Shown: in pieces, positions 6,720 to 45,477 of the stretch
Numbering within the stretch: position 1 is the stretch's first letter
Layout: each line of letters begins with the position of its first letter
From: Elusimicrobiota bacterium
Lineage (GTDB): Bacteria; Elusimicrobiota; Elusimicrobia; Elusimicrobiales; UBA9959
Length of the DNA stretch: 64,000 bases
NCBI GenBank assembly: GCA_026388155.1
Contig: JAPLKI010000010.1
Location: 186,001 to 250,000 of the forward strand
Reading direction: 5' to 3'
Made by a program: the position numbers and the translations under genes
Notes under the pieces: model-generated
The model's input: only the letters and a program-made list of their open reading frames with translations
The model's database searches: none
What the model was told of the DNA's origin: nothing

Positions 6720-6890
6720 TCACTAACGTTAGAATTGGGGAATCTGGAGGGGTGGCGAGGGCGTTGCCCTGTAGCCGCATAGCGGATGGGGGGCCCCGTT
6801 TCGGGGGGAAACCACGGGAGGGTTTCCTACGCGGCGCAAGGGCAATCCCTCGACAGGACCCCGACTGGGCATCTCGCGGATAGTAAATTT
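6720..6890 (+). repeat. GC-rich multi-hairpin element between moaC and the MOSC gene
   Basis: The 180-base gap holds no gene but several perfect small hairpins: AGGGC-GTT-GCCCT (6758-6770), CCGC-ATA-GCGG (about 6775-6785), a GGGGCCCC palindrome, and GGAAACC/GGTTTCC (6807-6827). It resembles other hairpin-rich gaps in this window (12.4, 15.8 and 43.7 kb) in style, and may be a dispersed structured repeat. As it sits inside a cofactor operon, a riboswitch must also be considered; I cannot fit it to the Moco motif by eye. Confidence 0.5.
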
Positions 6891-10136: not shown

Positions 10137-10550
10137 TTAAAAACCGTCCTCAACCTCCAAAACCGCCCCCGTAGCGATCCCCTCCAAAGCCTCTTTTAAA
10201 CCCGCGGCAAAATCTTTGCGGAAATCGGCGTATAATTTATACTTTAAAGGCGGTGGCATTTCGCAGTCTTCCATTAAAACGGGAATAATTATCGCGTGTT
10301 TTTCAGCTAATTCGTGTGTCAGCGCCGTCAATTCTTTTCCGCACCAGGCGGCTGAAATAGATGTTTTAGATATAACGATCAATAAAGCATCCATAGCCGT
10401 TATCCCCACTTGTGACCTGGCGAGAAGAGAATCTCCGGCCTGTAATTCCCATTTCGCCATCCAAATATAGTTATTGCGTTTGATCAGTTCGGAAGCAAGG
10501 TGATTGGCGAAATCAGCATCTTCTTTGGAATAGCTAACAAAAACCGACAT
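10137..10550 (-). CDS. Small TIR-domain protein (putative NAD-active effector)
   Basis: 137 residues, essentially one TIR domain. It opens MSVFVSYSKEDADFANHLASEL (beta-A with the SYSKED box), then the W-rich helix, DALLIVISKTSISAAWCGKEL and HAIIIPVLMEDCEMP. The Glu in WCGKEL is at the position of the catalytic Glu of NAD-cleaving TIRs, so activity is plausible. Stand-alone TIR proteins often work in anti-phage or abortive-infection systems, but no sensor partner is seen beside it. It faces away from a paralog at 11.0 kb across a decayed transposase. Function inferred. Confidence 0.8.
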   Translation of the reverse strand: MSVFVSYSKEDADFANHLASELIKRNNYIWMAKWELQAGDSLLARSQVGITAMDALLIVISKTSISAAWCGKELTALTHELAEKHAIIIPVLMEDCEMPPPLKYKLYADFRKDFAAGLKEALEGIATGAVLEVEDGF

Positions 10551-10934: not shown

Positions 10935-11024
10935 TTGTGTGACAATAACAGGCTCCTGATTGACGAACTTATTGAAAAAGAAGTGGTGAAGGAGAACCAT
11001 GTCGATTTATATCAGCTATCCTAA
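10935..11024 (+). CDS. Possible 29-residue leader ORF overlapping the second TIR gene
   Basis: A TTG start nine bases after GGGAG opens a frame that reads CDNNRLLIDELIEKEVV and ends 26 bases inside the TIR gene. The strong Shine-Dalgarno site and the overlap suggest a coupled leader peptide, or the worn remains of an upstream partner. It is short, and coding is unproven. Confidence 0.3.
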   Translation: MCDNNRLLIDELIEKEVVKENHVDLYQLS

Positions 11025-11430
11025 AGAAAATGCTGATTTTGCCAATCACCTAGCTTCTGAATTGGTCCGGCGTAACCACTGTGTCTGGGTGGAAAAATGG
11101 GAATTACAAGCCGGAGATTCTCTTATTGAGAAGGTACAAGGAACTATAACGGATTCGGACGCTTTGTTGGTCGTTATATCTAAAGCATCTGTTGCTGCTG
11201 CCTGGTGTAGAAGATCATTGGCGGCAACACTGACGCGGGAGGTAGCTGCAAAACATGCAATAATTGTTCCCGTTTTAATGGAAGACTGTGAAATACCGTT
11301 ATTTGTAACAAATTACCTGCGTGCCGATTTCCGCAAAGGTTTTGACGCGGGTTTTAAAAATATTTTTGAGGGGATTGCCGCGGGTGCGAGGCGTGATATC
11401 GGTGAGGATGAGCCCGGGGACGATTCTTGA
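10999..11430 (+). CDS. Small TIR-domain protein lacking the predicted catalytic Glu
   Basis: 143 residues, a clear paralog of the TIR at 10137-10550: MSIYISYPKENADFANHLASEL, WELQAGDSL, DALLVVISKASVAAAWC and HAIIVPVLMEDCEIP. Where the sister has WCGKEL this one has WCRRSL, so the Glu expected to cleave NAD is Ser. It may be a regulator, decoy or scaffold, or simply decaying. AAGGAGAACC sits just before the ATG. The C-terminal acidic tail (GEDEPGDD) is not shared. The two TIR genes point away from each other around an IS3 remnant. Confidence 0.8.
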   Translation: MSIYISYPKENADFANHLASELVRRNHCVWVEKWELQAGDSLIEKVQGTITDSDALLVVISKASVAAAWCRRSLAATLTREVAAKHAIIVPVLMEDCEIPLFVTNYLRADFRKGFDAGFKNIFEGIAAGARRDIGEDEPGDDS

Positions 11431-11635
11431 GCGCGCTAATCTGAATCTTGGCCGTCCGATGGCCATAGGCCCGTATAGTGGACGACCCTTTCCCAACACC
11501 TTAAGGGACACCCCCCCAAGCTTGGCGGGGGTTTCCCCTCCTACACAGGCCACGCCCTTTTGGTTCCAATATATATCCAAAAGAGCGGGGCAGGTATTGC
11601 AATATTTCTGTTCCCTGTGTTTCTTAATGAAAACT
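11431..11635 (+). repeat. Hairpin-rich gap with a diverged copy of the GGCC-ATA-GGCC unit
   Basis: No gene is visible. Bases 11448-11487 hold TTGGCCGTCCGATGGCCATAGGCC and then GGACGACC, forming an outer stem GGCCGTCC/GGACGACC around a GGCC-ATA-GGCC hairpin. Further right are a CCAAGCTTGG palindrome in a C-rich/G-rich stem, and CCTACACAGG. The core word is shared with copies at 12.31 and 12.50 kb. Confidence 0.55.
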
Positions 11636-11652
11636 ATCTTGAATTGCAAGAT
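11636..11652 (-). terminator. Likely terminator of udk
   Basis: Just past the udk stop, reading on the minus strand: ATCTTG-CAATT-CAAGAT followed by AGTTTTC. Six-base stem with a modest T run. Confidence 0.45.
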
Positions 11653-11657
11653 TCATG

Positions 11658-12299
11658 CTATCGGAAATGGTCTCTCAGCATTCTGACCAGGCCTTCGGTG
11701 GCTTTTTCCGGGATCTCTTCGCCTTCCCAGTTTATTGAGAAGTGGGCGTTTCTCTGGGTGGGTTTTACATAGGTCTCATACATCGGCATCACCGTGGTCA
11801 GGATCTGGTGCTTGGTATCTTCAATGGTGCGGCCCCTTTCTACGATATCTCTCTGCACCCTGCGCAAAACGCCCGTCACCATCCCTGTGGAAATGAATAT
11901 TTTGTAGTCGCAAAGAGCCAGGAATTTTGGGAAATAAAGAGTGTAAAGCCCCTCAAGTATGATCAGCTTTGTCGGGCGGCAGATGACGGGTTCTTTTTCC
12001 CGCGTGTGCAGCTTGAAATCATATACGGGCTGGCTGATAGATTTGCCCGCGCAGAGCATTTTTATGTGTTTTAAGGCGAGCGCGGAATCTATCGCGTTCG
12101 GGTGGTCGAAGTTGTAAGCCTTCCTCTCCTCAAATTTCAGATGGTCGAGCGGCCTGTAATAGTTGTCCAGTGATAAGATCTGGCCGGCAATCCCTATTTT
12201 TTCGCATTCTTCTATAAGTTTCTTGGCCAGAGTAGTCTTGCCCGATCCCGATCCTCCGGCGATGCCGACCAAAAACCTGGTTTTTGTTTTTGTGTCCAT
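11658..12299 (-). CDS. udk: Uridine kinase family protein
   Basis: 213 residues. Phosphorylates uridine (and cytidine) with a nucleoside triphosphate. P-loop GIAGGSGSGKTTLAKKL at the N-terminus, LSLDNYYRPLD and NFDHPNAID (the Udk substrate-loop pattern), then LIILEGLYTLYF (Walker B-like). About 210 residues is the usual Udk size. Start at 12299: ATAAGG lies just upstream; the longer GTG frame reads through a repeat and is rejected. Together with ppnP behind it, it suggests nucleoside salvage. Phosphoribulokinase-like relatives are an alternative. Confidence 0.82.
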   Translation of the reverse strand: MDTKTKTRFLVGIAGGSGSGKTTLAKKLIEECEKIGIAGQILSLDNYYRPLDHLKFEERKAYNFDHPNAIDSALALKHIKMLCAGKSISQPVYDFKLHTREKEPVICRPTKLIILEGLYTLYFPKFLALCDYKIFISTGMVTGVLRRVQRDIVERGRTIEDTKHQILTTVMPMYETYVKPTQRNAHFSINWEGEEIPEKATEGLVRMLRDHFR

Positions 12300-12312
12300 A
12301 ATAACCTTATCC

Positions 12313-12380
12313 GAATTCTTCAGTTGGCCGTCTGGTGGCCATAGGCCCTGATACGGCACCTACACAAGTATTGAAGAATC
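12313..12380 (+). repeat. Structured repeat, copy B (GGCC-ATA-GGCC unit)
   Basis: Outer stem ATTCTTCA/TGAAGAAT, inner stem GCCGT/ACGGC around GGCC-ATA-GGCC, then an ACCT-ACAC-AAGT hairpin. Nearly identical inside to copy C at 12496-12564, but the outer stem differs on both sides and still pairs. The drawn fold is a three-way junction. Confidence 0.65.
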
Positions 12381-12490
12381 CCCGTTCCCAGCGCTCGCGG
12401 ATCGCTGCGCGACGGATACACCCTTGAGAATTTCCGCGCATAGCGCTGGAAATTCTAAACCCGCTACTGCGGGGAATCCTGCATTTTTTT
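12376..12490 (+). repeat. Nested hairpins between copies B and C
   Basis: GAATCCCCG (12376-12384) pairs with CGGGGAATC (12470-12478), enclosing a perfect GAATTTCC/GGAAATTC hairpin (12428-12455) whose loop contains GCATAGC. The outer stem is followed by TGCATTTTTTT, as in a terminator read rightward, although no rightward gene feeds it. Confidence 0.5.
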
Positions 12491-12495
12491 ATCAT

Positions 12496-12564
12496 CCGAT
12501 TTCCCAATGGCCGTCTGTTGGCCATAGGCCTTGAAACGGCACCTATGCAGGTATTGAAAATCGG
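12496..12564 (+). repeat. Structured repeat, copy C (GGCC-ATA-GGCC unit)
   Basis: The core matches copy B (TGGCCGTCTGTTGGCCATAGG, then TTGAAACGGCACCTATGCAGG). The outer stem here is CCGATTT/AAATCGG in place of ATTCTTCA/TGAAGAAT. The last hairpin is ACCT-ATGC-AGGT. Confidence 0.65.
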
Positions 12565-12587
12565 GTTTAATTGCCGGATTCGGGTTA

Positions 12588-15619: not shown

Positions 15620-15691
15620 TGCGCCCACCTGGAATCGAACCAGGACAACCAGCTTCGCAGGCTGGGACTCTATCCGTTGAGATATGGGCGC
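15620..15691 (-). tRNA. tRNA-Arg (anticodon GCG)
   Basis: A 72-base cloverleaf folds on the minus strand: acceptor GCGCCCA/TGGGCGC with discriminator A, D arm with the GGATA loop that gives A20, anticodon stem CCAGC/GCTGG with loop CTGCGAA, and T arm CCTGG-TTCGATT-CCAGG. CCA is not encoded. C35 and A20 are Arg identity bases. GCG reads CGC and CGU; most bacteria use ACG (deaminated to ICG) for this box. Confidence 0.93.
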
Positions 15692-15925
15692 ATCTGTCGC
15701 ATCCCGCGCCGCACAGCGCGCGGGACGGATTATCCGCCGGCCTTTAAGCGGTGGCGGCCGGTGCTCCACGAGGGGAGCTAAGCTCCCCTTCGTCGTTCGC
15801 TCAACCGCTTTTAGCGGTCCGCTCACTGAACCCCTTCTATAAGGTCCCCGCACTCACTAGCGAAGGTAATCGTGCGGGCTTATCGCACCGTCCGCACTGT
15901 ACAGCGTTCGGGGCCGACTACTTAT
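15692..15925 (+). repeat. GC-rich multi-hairpin element beside tRNA-Arg
   Basis: No gene seen in 15692-16069. Perfect hairpins: TCCCGCGC/GCGCGGGA (15702-15725), AGGGGAGCT-A-AGCTCCCCT (15771-15789) and ACCGCT-TTT-AGCGGT (15804-15818), plus a CCGGCC/GGCCGG stem. In style it resembles the 43.6 kb element, with an RCCGC hairpin near a palindrome whose arms end in CTTCG. The remaining 140 bases are AT-rich with no recognisable feature. Confidence 0.5.
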
Positions 15926-43365: not shown

Positions 43366-43633
43366 ATTCTGGTCACCCCCGATGGGTTCGCAGGGCCTGC
43401 CGCCGGACCGGAACGCGGGGACAGCCGCCCACACCGTGGCCGGCTTCCACCACTCATCTTCGGCGCTTATGCAAGCCTCAGATTCGCGAAGGCCCCGCTA
43501 ACCCGGCTCCGGCGTCACCCGCTCCATTTATTCCCGACCTATTCCTTATATCAAGTTTCTCTCTGTTAACGTCCTTTTCACAATAAAACCGACTTCTTAT
43601 GTTTAAAAAAGCCGGCGGCGAAAACACCTAGCT
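43366..43633 (+). other. Gene-free GC-rich stretch after the SEC-C gene
   Basis: The first 150 bases are GC-rich with no open frame I trust. CGTCACCCGC (43513-43522) pairs perfectly with GCGGGTGACG (43637-43646). The rest is AT-rich without a recognisable feature. Confidence 0.4.
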
Positions 43634-43901
43634 TGCGCGGGTGACGGGGGACTGGGTAAGCAAAACACTCCGGAGCCCGACGCTTGCATAGCGCGGAGGT
43701 GAGGCACGGCTTCAGAGCGAAGCATAATTATGCTTCGCGTCCGGGCCGCAAGGGCGGAGGCGGTTCTCTGCGAAGCAGAACCGCTGAGCCGGGGCCGCGC
43801 AAAACCGCTATGCGGTTTATGAGTGGCGAGGAAGTGAAGGGCGGGCACGGTGTGTCCCGACCCTGGTTTTGCGTTCCCAGTCCCCCGGCAGGACCCGTGC
43901 C
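43634..43901 (+). repeat. Large inverted-repeat, multi-hairpin element
   Basis: Terminal arms (43645-43666 and 43866-43887) agree at 20 of 22 bases; the left begins CGGGGGACTGGG. Inside are a perfect 22-base palindrome (43717-43738, arms GCGAAGCATAA), a GCGGTTCT/AGAACCGC stem (43760-43784) and AAACCGC-TAT-GCGGTTT (43802-43818). It could be a MITE-like repeat or a structured RNA. No transposase is seen. Confidence 0.6.
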
Positions 43902-45328: not shown

Positions 45329-45477
45329 GGCTCAGGTAGACAGAATCCAGAAGTCAAGCCTATGGCAGTGCCGTAAAAAGAGCTATGCTCCTCAAACGGC
45401 CAGGATTCAGAACGGTGGAATCTGCTCAATTGCTGGTGCTCCCATTCTGACTACTGAATTCTGACTTCTGGCTACCC
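45329..45477 (-). repeat. Heptad-arm hairpin repeat between thrC and the kinase-like gene
   Basis: GTAGACAGAATCCAGAAGTC on one side, CCATTCTGACTACTGAATTC and TGACTTCTGG on the other; the read-back words are CAGAAGT, CAGAATT, CAGTAGT, CAGAATG. The arm ends beside the stop of the kinase-like gene. Confidence 0.6.

Follow-up and report, generated by a model that had tools for sequence, protein, structure and literature searches.

The repeated unit described here is in all likelihood a very small non-autonomous mobile element that inserts precisely, with an inner fold selected for its shape and an outer stem that is supplied by the hairpin of a host repeat. This study analyzed a 64-kb stretch of DNA (the window) from a genome of 25 contigs (3.36 Mb), to which the genome-wide counts refer. 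Copies gathered across the genome defined the unit as [G]GCCGT-YTG-hp1-YTGAT-ACGGC-hp2-TT[G], with a length of 46-48 nt; with its full conserved parts, it reads [G]GCCGTCTGA-hp1-CTGATACGGC-ACC-hp2-TT[G]. Each unit holds three helices: a GCCGT/ACGGC stem that encloses hp1 (4 bp, loop ATA or ACC) to form an interrupted hairpin, and then a second short hairpin, hp2 (3-4 bp). Outside the unit, the copies differ from one another, except for those in a common host repeat. The features identified in the window are listed below; scores are those of the covariance model, and the host repeat, the host arms, and unit 3 (with its subtype core pattern) were assigned from the sequence.

6803-6849, no strand assigned: empty target site without a unit, paralogous to the filled sites C25:356477 and C20:76847
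11443-11654, no strand assigned: host arms around unit 3, GAATCTTG (11443-11450) and CAAGATTC (11647-11654)
11451-11599, plus strand: unit 3, long subtype
12302-12587, no strand assigned: host palindromic repeat, with related unfilled copies in L043, L073, and L256
12313-12322, no strand assigned: host hairpin interrupted by unit 1, left arm (its right arm is at 12372-12380); L043, L073, and L030 have this hairpin intact
12327-12373, plus strand: unit 1, type I, 47 nt (GCCGT..ATTG), 74.4 bits, E 1.4e-16
12496-12502, no strand assigned: host hairpin interrupted by unit 2, left arm (its right arm is at approximately 12558-12564); L073:4596-4669 has this hairpin intact
12510-12556, plus strand: unit 2, type I, 47 nt, 70.0 bits, E 1.7e-15
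43629-43760, no strand assigned: two empty target sites, paralogous to the filled sites C10:68321 and C16:224480
45355-45401, minus strand: unit 4, type II (hp2 GCC-ATA-GGC), 49.0 bits, E 2.5e-10

The original prediction described two copies of a 68-69-nt repeat that included outer stems, and a third, diverged copy with a stem of its own. All three copies are real, and the fourth, on the minus strand at 45355-45401, had been missed. The core that two of them were said to share was confirmed at 12326 and 12509, with a related sequence at 11450 (three matches to GGCCGTCnGnTGGCCATAGGCC, compared with 0.01 expected by chance). The unit itself proved to be 47 nt long at 12327-12373 and 12510-12556; the ends carry a one-G ambiguity, with an alternative span of 12326-12372 for unit 1. 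The third copy, which had been regarded as short and diverged (11448-11487), is a long-subtype unit that occupies 11451-11599 between host arms. It comprises a GGCCGTCC/GGACGACC stem, an extra domain of the GGGGA..TTTCCCC type, and hp2, the loop of which holds another inserted repeat (approximately 11550-11591). The long-subtype core pattern was found 23 times in the genome and 0 times for the reversed control, and the same flanks were observed with the long and the short version of the unit (L021 versus L001).

A covariance-model search for further copies revealed 97 matches in the genome, at approximately 95 places, and more in related genomes. Among 93 copies in the source genome, 81 were intergenic, and the unit lay on the locally G-richer strand in 57 cases versus 35. 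Six contig ends (C2, C4, C20, C22, C23, and C24; L001, L002, L014, and L019-L021) were within approximately 150 bases of a unit, all of them in one larger repeat, GGGGGACCACGGGAG..GGTCCCCCACGGG. This larger repeat probably broke the assembly at these ends, and the unit copies may therefore be undercounted. The conserved 5' end of most units, GCCGTCTGA(A) (12327-12336), matches the core of the Neisseria DNA uptake sequence, GCCGTCTGAA, which we presume is probably a coincidence.

The outer stem had been proposed to co-evolve with the rest of the repeat. The pairs ATTCTTCA/TGAAGAAT and CCGATTT/AAATCGG are present and fold, but they belong to host palindromes and not to the unit, and the same hairpins occur elsewhere in the genome without it. 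The empty hairpin of copy 1 joins ATCCGAATTCTTCAGTTG directly to AAGAATTCCCC; L043 carries it as GAATTCTTCAGTTG joined to AAGAATTC, with the exact empty paralogue of unit 1 at L043:1404-1466. The empty hairpin of copy 2, CCGATTTTCCAATA joined to AAAACCGG, is in L073 (4596-4669). Both units lie in the same host repeat at 12302-12587 (ends TAACC..GAATTC and GGATTCGGGTTA), which is located between the stop codon of an upstream cupin-like gene and the start of a uridine-kinase-like gene. Both of its hairpins hold a unit, and the host repeat is absent at the corresponding place in the congeners G001 and G002. The apparent outer stem is thus an older host palindrome split by insertion of the unit. 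Here, each hairpin of a single palindrome received an insertion, and the pair of events mimicked compensatory change.

That the outer stem is a co-evolving part of the element is extremely improbable. The outer stems of copies 1 and 2 are perfect over 7-8 bp, and paired flanks are mildly in excess, with complementarity of at least 7 bp in 8 of 69 distinct insertions compared with approximately 2.6 expected by re-pairing the flanks. However, this excess arises because the unit inserts into palindromic repeats, the outer stem is missing in most copies, and identical hairpins are found unsplit and unit-free. A change on both sides of a stem in two copies can therefore arise when a unit lands in palindromes, with no compensatory mutation involved.

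The inner fold, by contrast with the outer stem, is under selection, and this part of the predicted selected fold held. Neither of the outcomes named beforehand as refuting it, a lack of more copies or a lack of covariation, was observed. In an alignment of 105 distinct copies, two-sided changes with pairing kept were observed in 8 of 12 pairs, with 157 two-sided cells compared with a shuffled mean of 51, and 0 of 500 shuffles reached the covariation score; the shuffles ignore kinship, and the alignment was fitted to the covariance model, so that these counts lean towards structure. A plain MAFFT alignment of 44 sequences gave two-sided changes in 8 of 13 pairs, and RNAalifold recovered the same structure unprompted. 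Slid structures, used as a control, showed almost no two-sided covariation and far lower scores. Covariation was present in all three inner helices: the stem changes from GCCGT/ACGGC to GCCGC/GCGGC (pairing between GCCGT and ACGGC holds in 98.9% of cells), the hp1 arms occur as GGCC, GGAC/GTCC, GCAC/GTGC, GAGC/GCTC, and AGCC/GGCT, and the hp2 arms occur as TAC/GTA, TGC/GCA, GCC/GGC, and TCC/GGA. Mismatches amounted to 32 G-T and 14 A-C, or 18 versus 14 after subtraction of 14 G-T cells of register-shifted type II/III hp2; this near balance gives no sign of one-strand RNA selection.

A cis-regulatory or structural RNA family would also account for clear covariation in mostly intergenic copies, and many copies carry GCAA, a GNRA loop, in hp2. 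This explanation is very unlikely. Rfam gave no match for the unit at gathering score and E-value thresholds, and gene context and orientation are not common to the copies. Precise filled and empty polymorphism, mutual nesting, and insertion into coding sequence suit a mobile element, and an RNA fold in transcripts may be a secondary role.

To identify empty sites, we joined the flanks of each copy and sought the joined sequence in the retrieved DNA. Exact, ungapped empty paralogues were found for 40 copies, units 1 and 2 among them; these include same-locus matches (C25:27715, C21:89772, and C18:192495), and the sound count is approximately 37. For one 76-nt host repeat, the filled and empty versions were 100% identical apart from the unit. 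Unit 4 lies within a CCAGAAGTCAGAATTC-type palindrome with an empty paralogue at L206:1929-1980, and the target of unit 3, at the junction of GAATCCTG and CAT, is empty in L210 and filled in L009, L015, L018, and L059. In the window, the empty site at 6803-6849 matched its filled paralogues (96% and 91%) along the 47 nt that span the junction, and the two sites at 43629-43760 matched theirs at 90% (72 nt) and 95% (63 nt). A further repeat, TGTCGCACCCCG..GCACAGCGCGCGG (15691-15765), which recurs often among the empty targets, abuts a tRNA gene (15620-15691).

No target duplication was detected at the ungapped empty junctions of the 40 copies. A 2-bp duplication (TG..TG or AG..AG), raised by a correlation between ends and flanks, was rejected, given that AG..TG is common (21/79). 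The base preceding the unit was G in 67 of 68 cases (1.86 bits), that at -2 was mostly A or T (weakly, 0.44 bits), and T occurred at +2 downstream in 1 of 79 (p 1.5e-7). AG preceded 13 of 17 AG-ended units and 21 of 59 TG-ended units (p 0.005). Such likeness between an element end and its target is expected under IS200/IS605-type transposition (PMC6006769) and would account for the tandem arrays, the TTG end being itself a target.

Exact head-to-tail arrays with a period of 47-48 nt were present in the source genome and in related genomes, and close pairs of units had the same orientation in 6 of 10 cases and opposite orientations in 4. In L010, a unit is nested within the hp1 loop of another, with an empty relative in L083. 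Another repeat, CCCCGCCCTTTTGG..CCAAAAGAGCGGGG, also sits in unit loops (L010, L049, L065, and 11550-11591), and its insertions show an apparent 4-5-bp target duplication (CAAG, CATA). Beside unit 3, we observed a divergent pair of similar short proteins, encoded at 10137-10550 (minus strand) and 10999-11430 (plus strand), which begin FVSYSKEDADFANHLASEL and YISYPKENADFANHLASEL and look TIR-like by eye.

The direction of change rests on polA. In this gene (L174, C10:281877-281925), a 48-nt unit lies in frame in the stretch that separates the 5'-3' exonuclease domain from the polymerase domain, and it is absent in the orthologues of the congeners G001 and G002. This argues for insertion rather than precise excision, whereas the paralogous empty sites fit either. 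In-frame units were found in four long genes, namely polA, prmC, and the genes for a TPR protein and an 820-aa membrane-like protein; the annotation is Pfam-based, the 820-aa protein has no Pfam match, and the congener comparison covers polA only. The unit was 48 nt long in all four, compared with a length divisible by three in 8 of 85 others (p 0.0002), and the frames and orientation of in-gene units vary between genes.

On the basis of these findings, the unit inserts precisely after G, mostly in [T/A]G, without target duplication and rarely where T is the second base downstream. It often lands in other palindromic repeats, within their hairpin arms, in other units, or after the ..TTG end of an existing unit. 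The covarying inner fold would be kept because the mobility machinery reads shape more than sequence, and transfer may occur as single-stranded DNA hairpins that an HUH/Y1-like enzyme, supplied in trans, would cut and rejoin; we consider the case for this route evenly balanced. IS200/IS605 elements recognize single-strand hairpins and insert after a motif like their own 3' end without target duplication (PMC6006769). The unit resembles them in the lack of duplication, in a target like its own 3' end, and perhaps in hairpins read as single strands, but differs in that its target holds little beyond one G, compared with their fixed target (a tetranucleotide, or 4-5 nt, 5' of the left end), and in that there is no transposase gene inside or beside it.

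No transposase or reverse transcriptase family tracked the unit convincingly. IS110 was discarded as the mover, being sporadic (12/41 genomes) and not in the source genome. Y1_Tnp is encoded in 33 of the 41 family genomes, which would suit a REP-type palindrome mobilized by RAYT (Y1) transposases of the family; moreover, short structured high-copy repeats that are mostly intergenic and lack target duplication are REP-like. Nevertheless, such an origin is unlikely. Units flanked Y1_Tnp genes at 0 of 33 loci (103 kb), and 2 of 20 further loci had a unit, near background. No Y1_Tnp was found in G025 (82 copies), G029, G035, or G032, which are incomplete MAGs (G025 approximately 90% complete), and genomes that lack Y1_Tnp did not have fewer copies (p 0.37). 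The Y1 genes examined have repeats of their own: the source genome carries four Y1 transposase genes (L074-L077), and those of L074 and L075 lie between AAAAGGTA..TACCTTTT hairpins that form a repeat family distinct from the unit. One Y1 gene approximately 140 nt from a unit (L425) was surrounded by other repeats and looked like a coincidence.

The form of the unit also separates it from REPs. It resembles REP (GTAG, CGTC; PMC3733652) and REPIN (PMC3116915) sequences in being very short, structured, high-copy, and mostly intergenic, and it shares with REPs the existence of subfamilies with complementary stem changes; CGTC repeats likewise have no linked transposase. A REP, however, is a single 5-13-bp hairpin with an unpaired 5' GTAG or CGTC tag, found mostly in head-to-head pairs (PMC3733652). 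The unit has two unlike hairpins and exact tandem arrays; it begins GCCGTC, with GCCGT paired, so that CGT lies within the stem and no unpaired GTAG or CGTC was found at the foot. Head-to-head arrangement did not predominate among the close pairs.

An alternative is mobility at the RNA level, in which the transcribed unit is inserted in trans by reverse splicing or reverse transcription. RNA intermediates were proposed for fungal double-hairpin elements, given their absent target duplications (PMC2800124). Genomes with a reverse transcriptase (RVT_1) held more units (p 0.0002), and units in the source genome were aligned with both flanking genes in 33 cases and against them in 14 (93 copies). 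We consider this route distinctly improbable. The reverse transcriptases comprise both group II introns and DGR-like types (IGNLTSQ motif, by eye) that are unlike each other and offer no single candidate, G002 has 75 unit copies and none of these enzymes, the unit excess may reflect general mobile-element load, and strand-specific G-U enrichment was absent; the link was rejected despite the higher copy number. A DGR-like reverse transcriptase with the IGNLTSQ motif (L393, C17:45666-46307) lies approximately 2 kb from two units, and relatives also carry DGR-like enzymes. Matches to the 2dG-II riboswitch occur near reverse transcriptase genes of three relatives (L394:5425-5495, L407:3301-3370, and L402:467-536), and that in L407 adjoins a group II intron match.

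The unit was confined to family f1 in the genomes sampled. Among relatives, matches occurred in 30 of 61 genomes (the source genome included), all of f1, and in 0 of 24 genomes of the sister family. In a phylum sample, the unit was present in 39 of 46 f1 genomes and in 0 of 249 genomes outside f1. At least 120 stretches of viral contigs matched a loose unit pattern, for which chance matches are expected. We found no description of such repeats in Elusimicrobia in the literature, with thin coverage of subscription journals.

The unit is best classed as a small palindromic mobile repeat set apart from REP, MITE, and RPE families. Like MITEs, it is small, non-autonomous, and subject to nested insertions, but its two ends, GCCGT.. 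and ..ATTG, do not form inverted repeats, and it leaves no target duplication; the host repeats, unlike the unit, look MITE-like. Rickettsia palindromic elements (RPE) are approximately 150 bp long with a conserved reading frame (PMC10969869). They share with the unit the palindromic, mobile character and in-frame insertion in genes, whereas the unit is 46-48 nt, mostly intergenic, present in genes as a 48-nt variant, and from another phylum, the comparison being by description. Fungal mitochondrial double-hairpin elements are short, dispersed, and thought to be mobile without target duplication, with 1 to 14 in the mtDNA of fission yeasts (PMC10085805, PMC2800124). The resemblance of the unit, with its two adjacent hairpins, to these elements is in form only, and it differs in having approximately 95 copies in a bacterial genome and exact empty sites.

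These findings provide a clean natural case of a mobile element of approximately 47 nt, with hundreds of copies in one bacterial family, exact empty sites, and strong covariation, and the movement of palindromic repeats that lack a transposase (CGTC REPs, RPEs, and double-hairpin elements) becomes directly testable. A bolder and still tentative reading is that the unit is a lineage-specific bacterial 'double-hairpin element', a parasite of approximately 47 nt that would be moved as a folded single strand by a shape-reading enzyme and would add 16-residue peptides to essential proteins. If this is true, a chromosomal parasite of approximately 47 nt would approach the lower size limit of a mobile unit.
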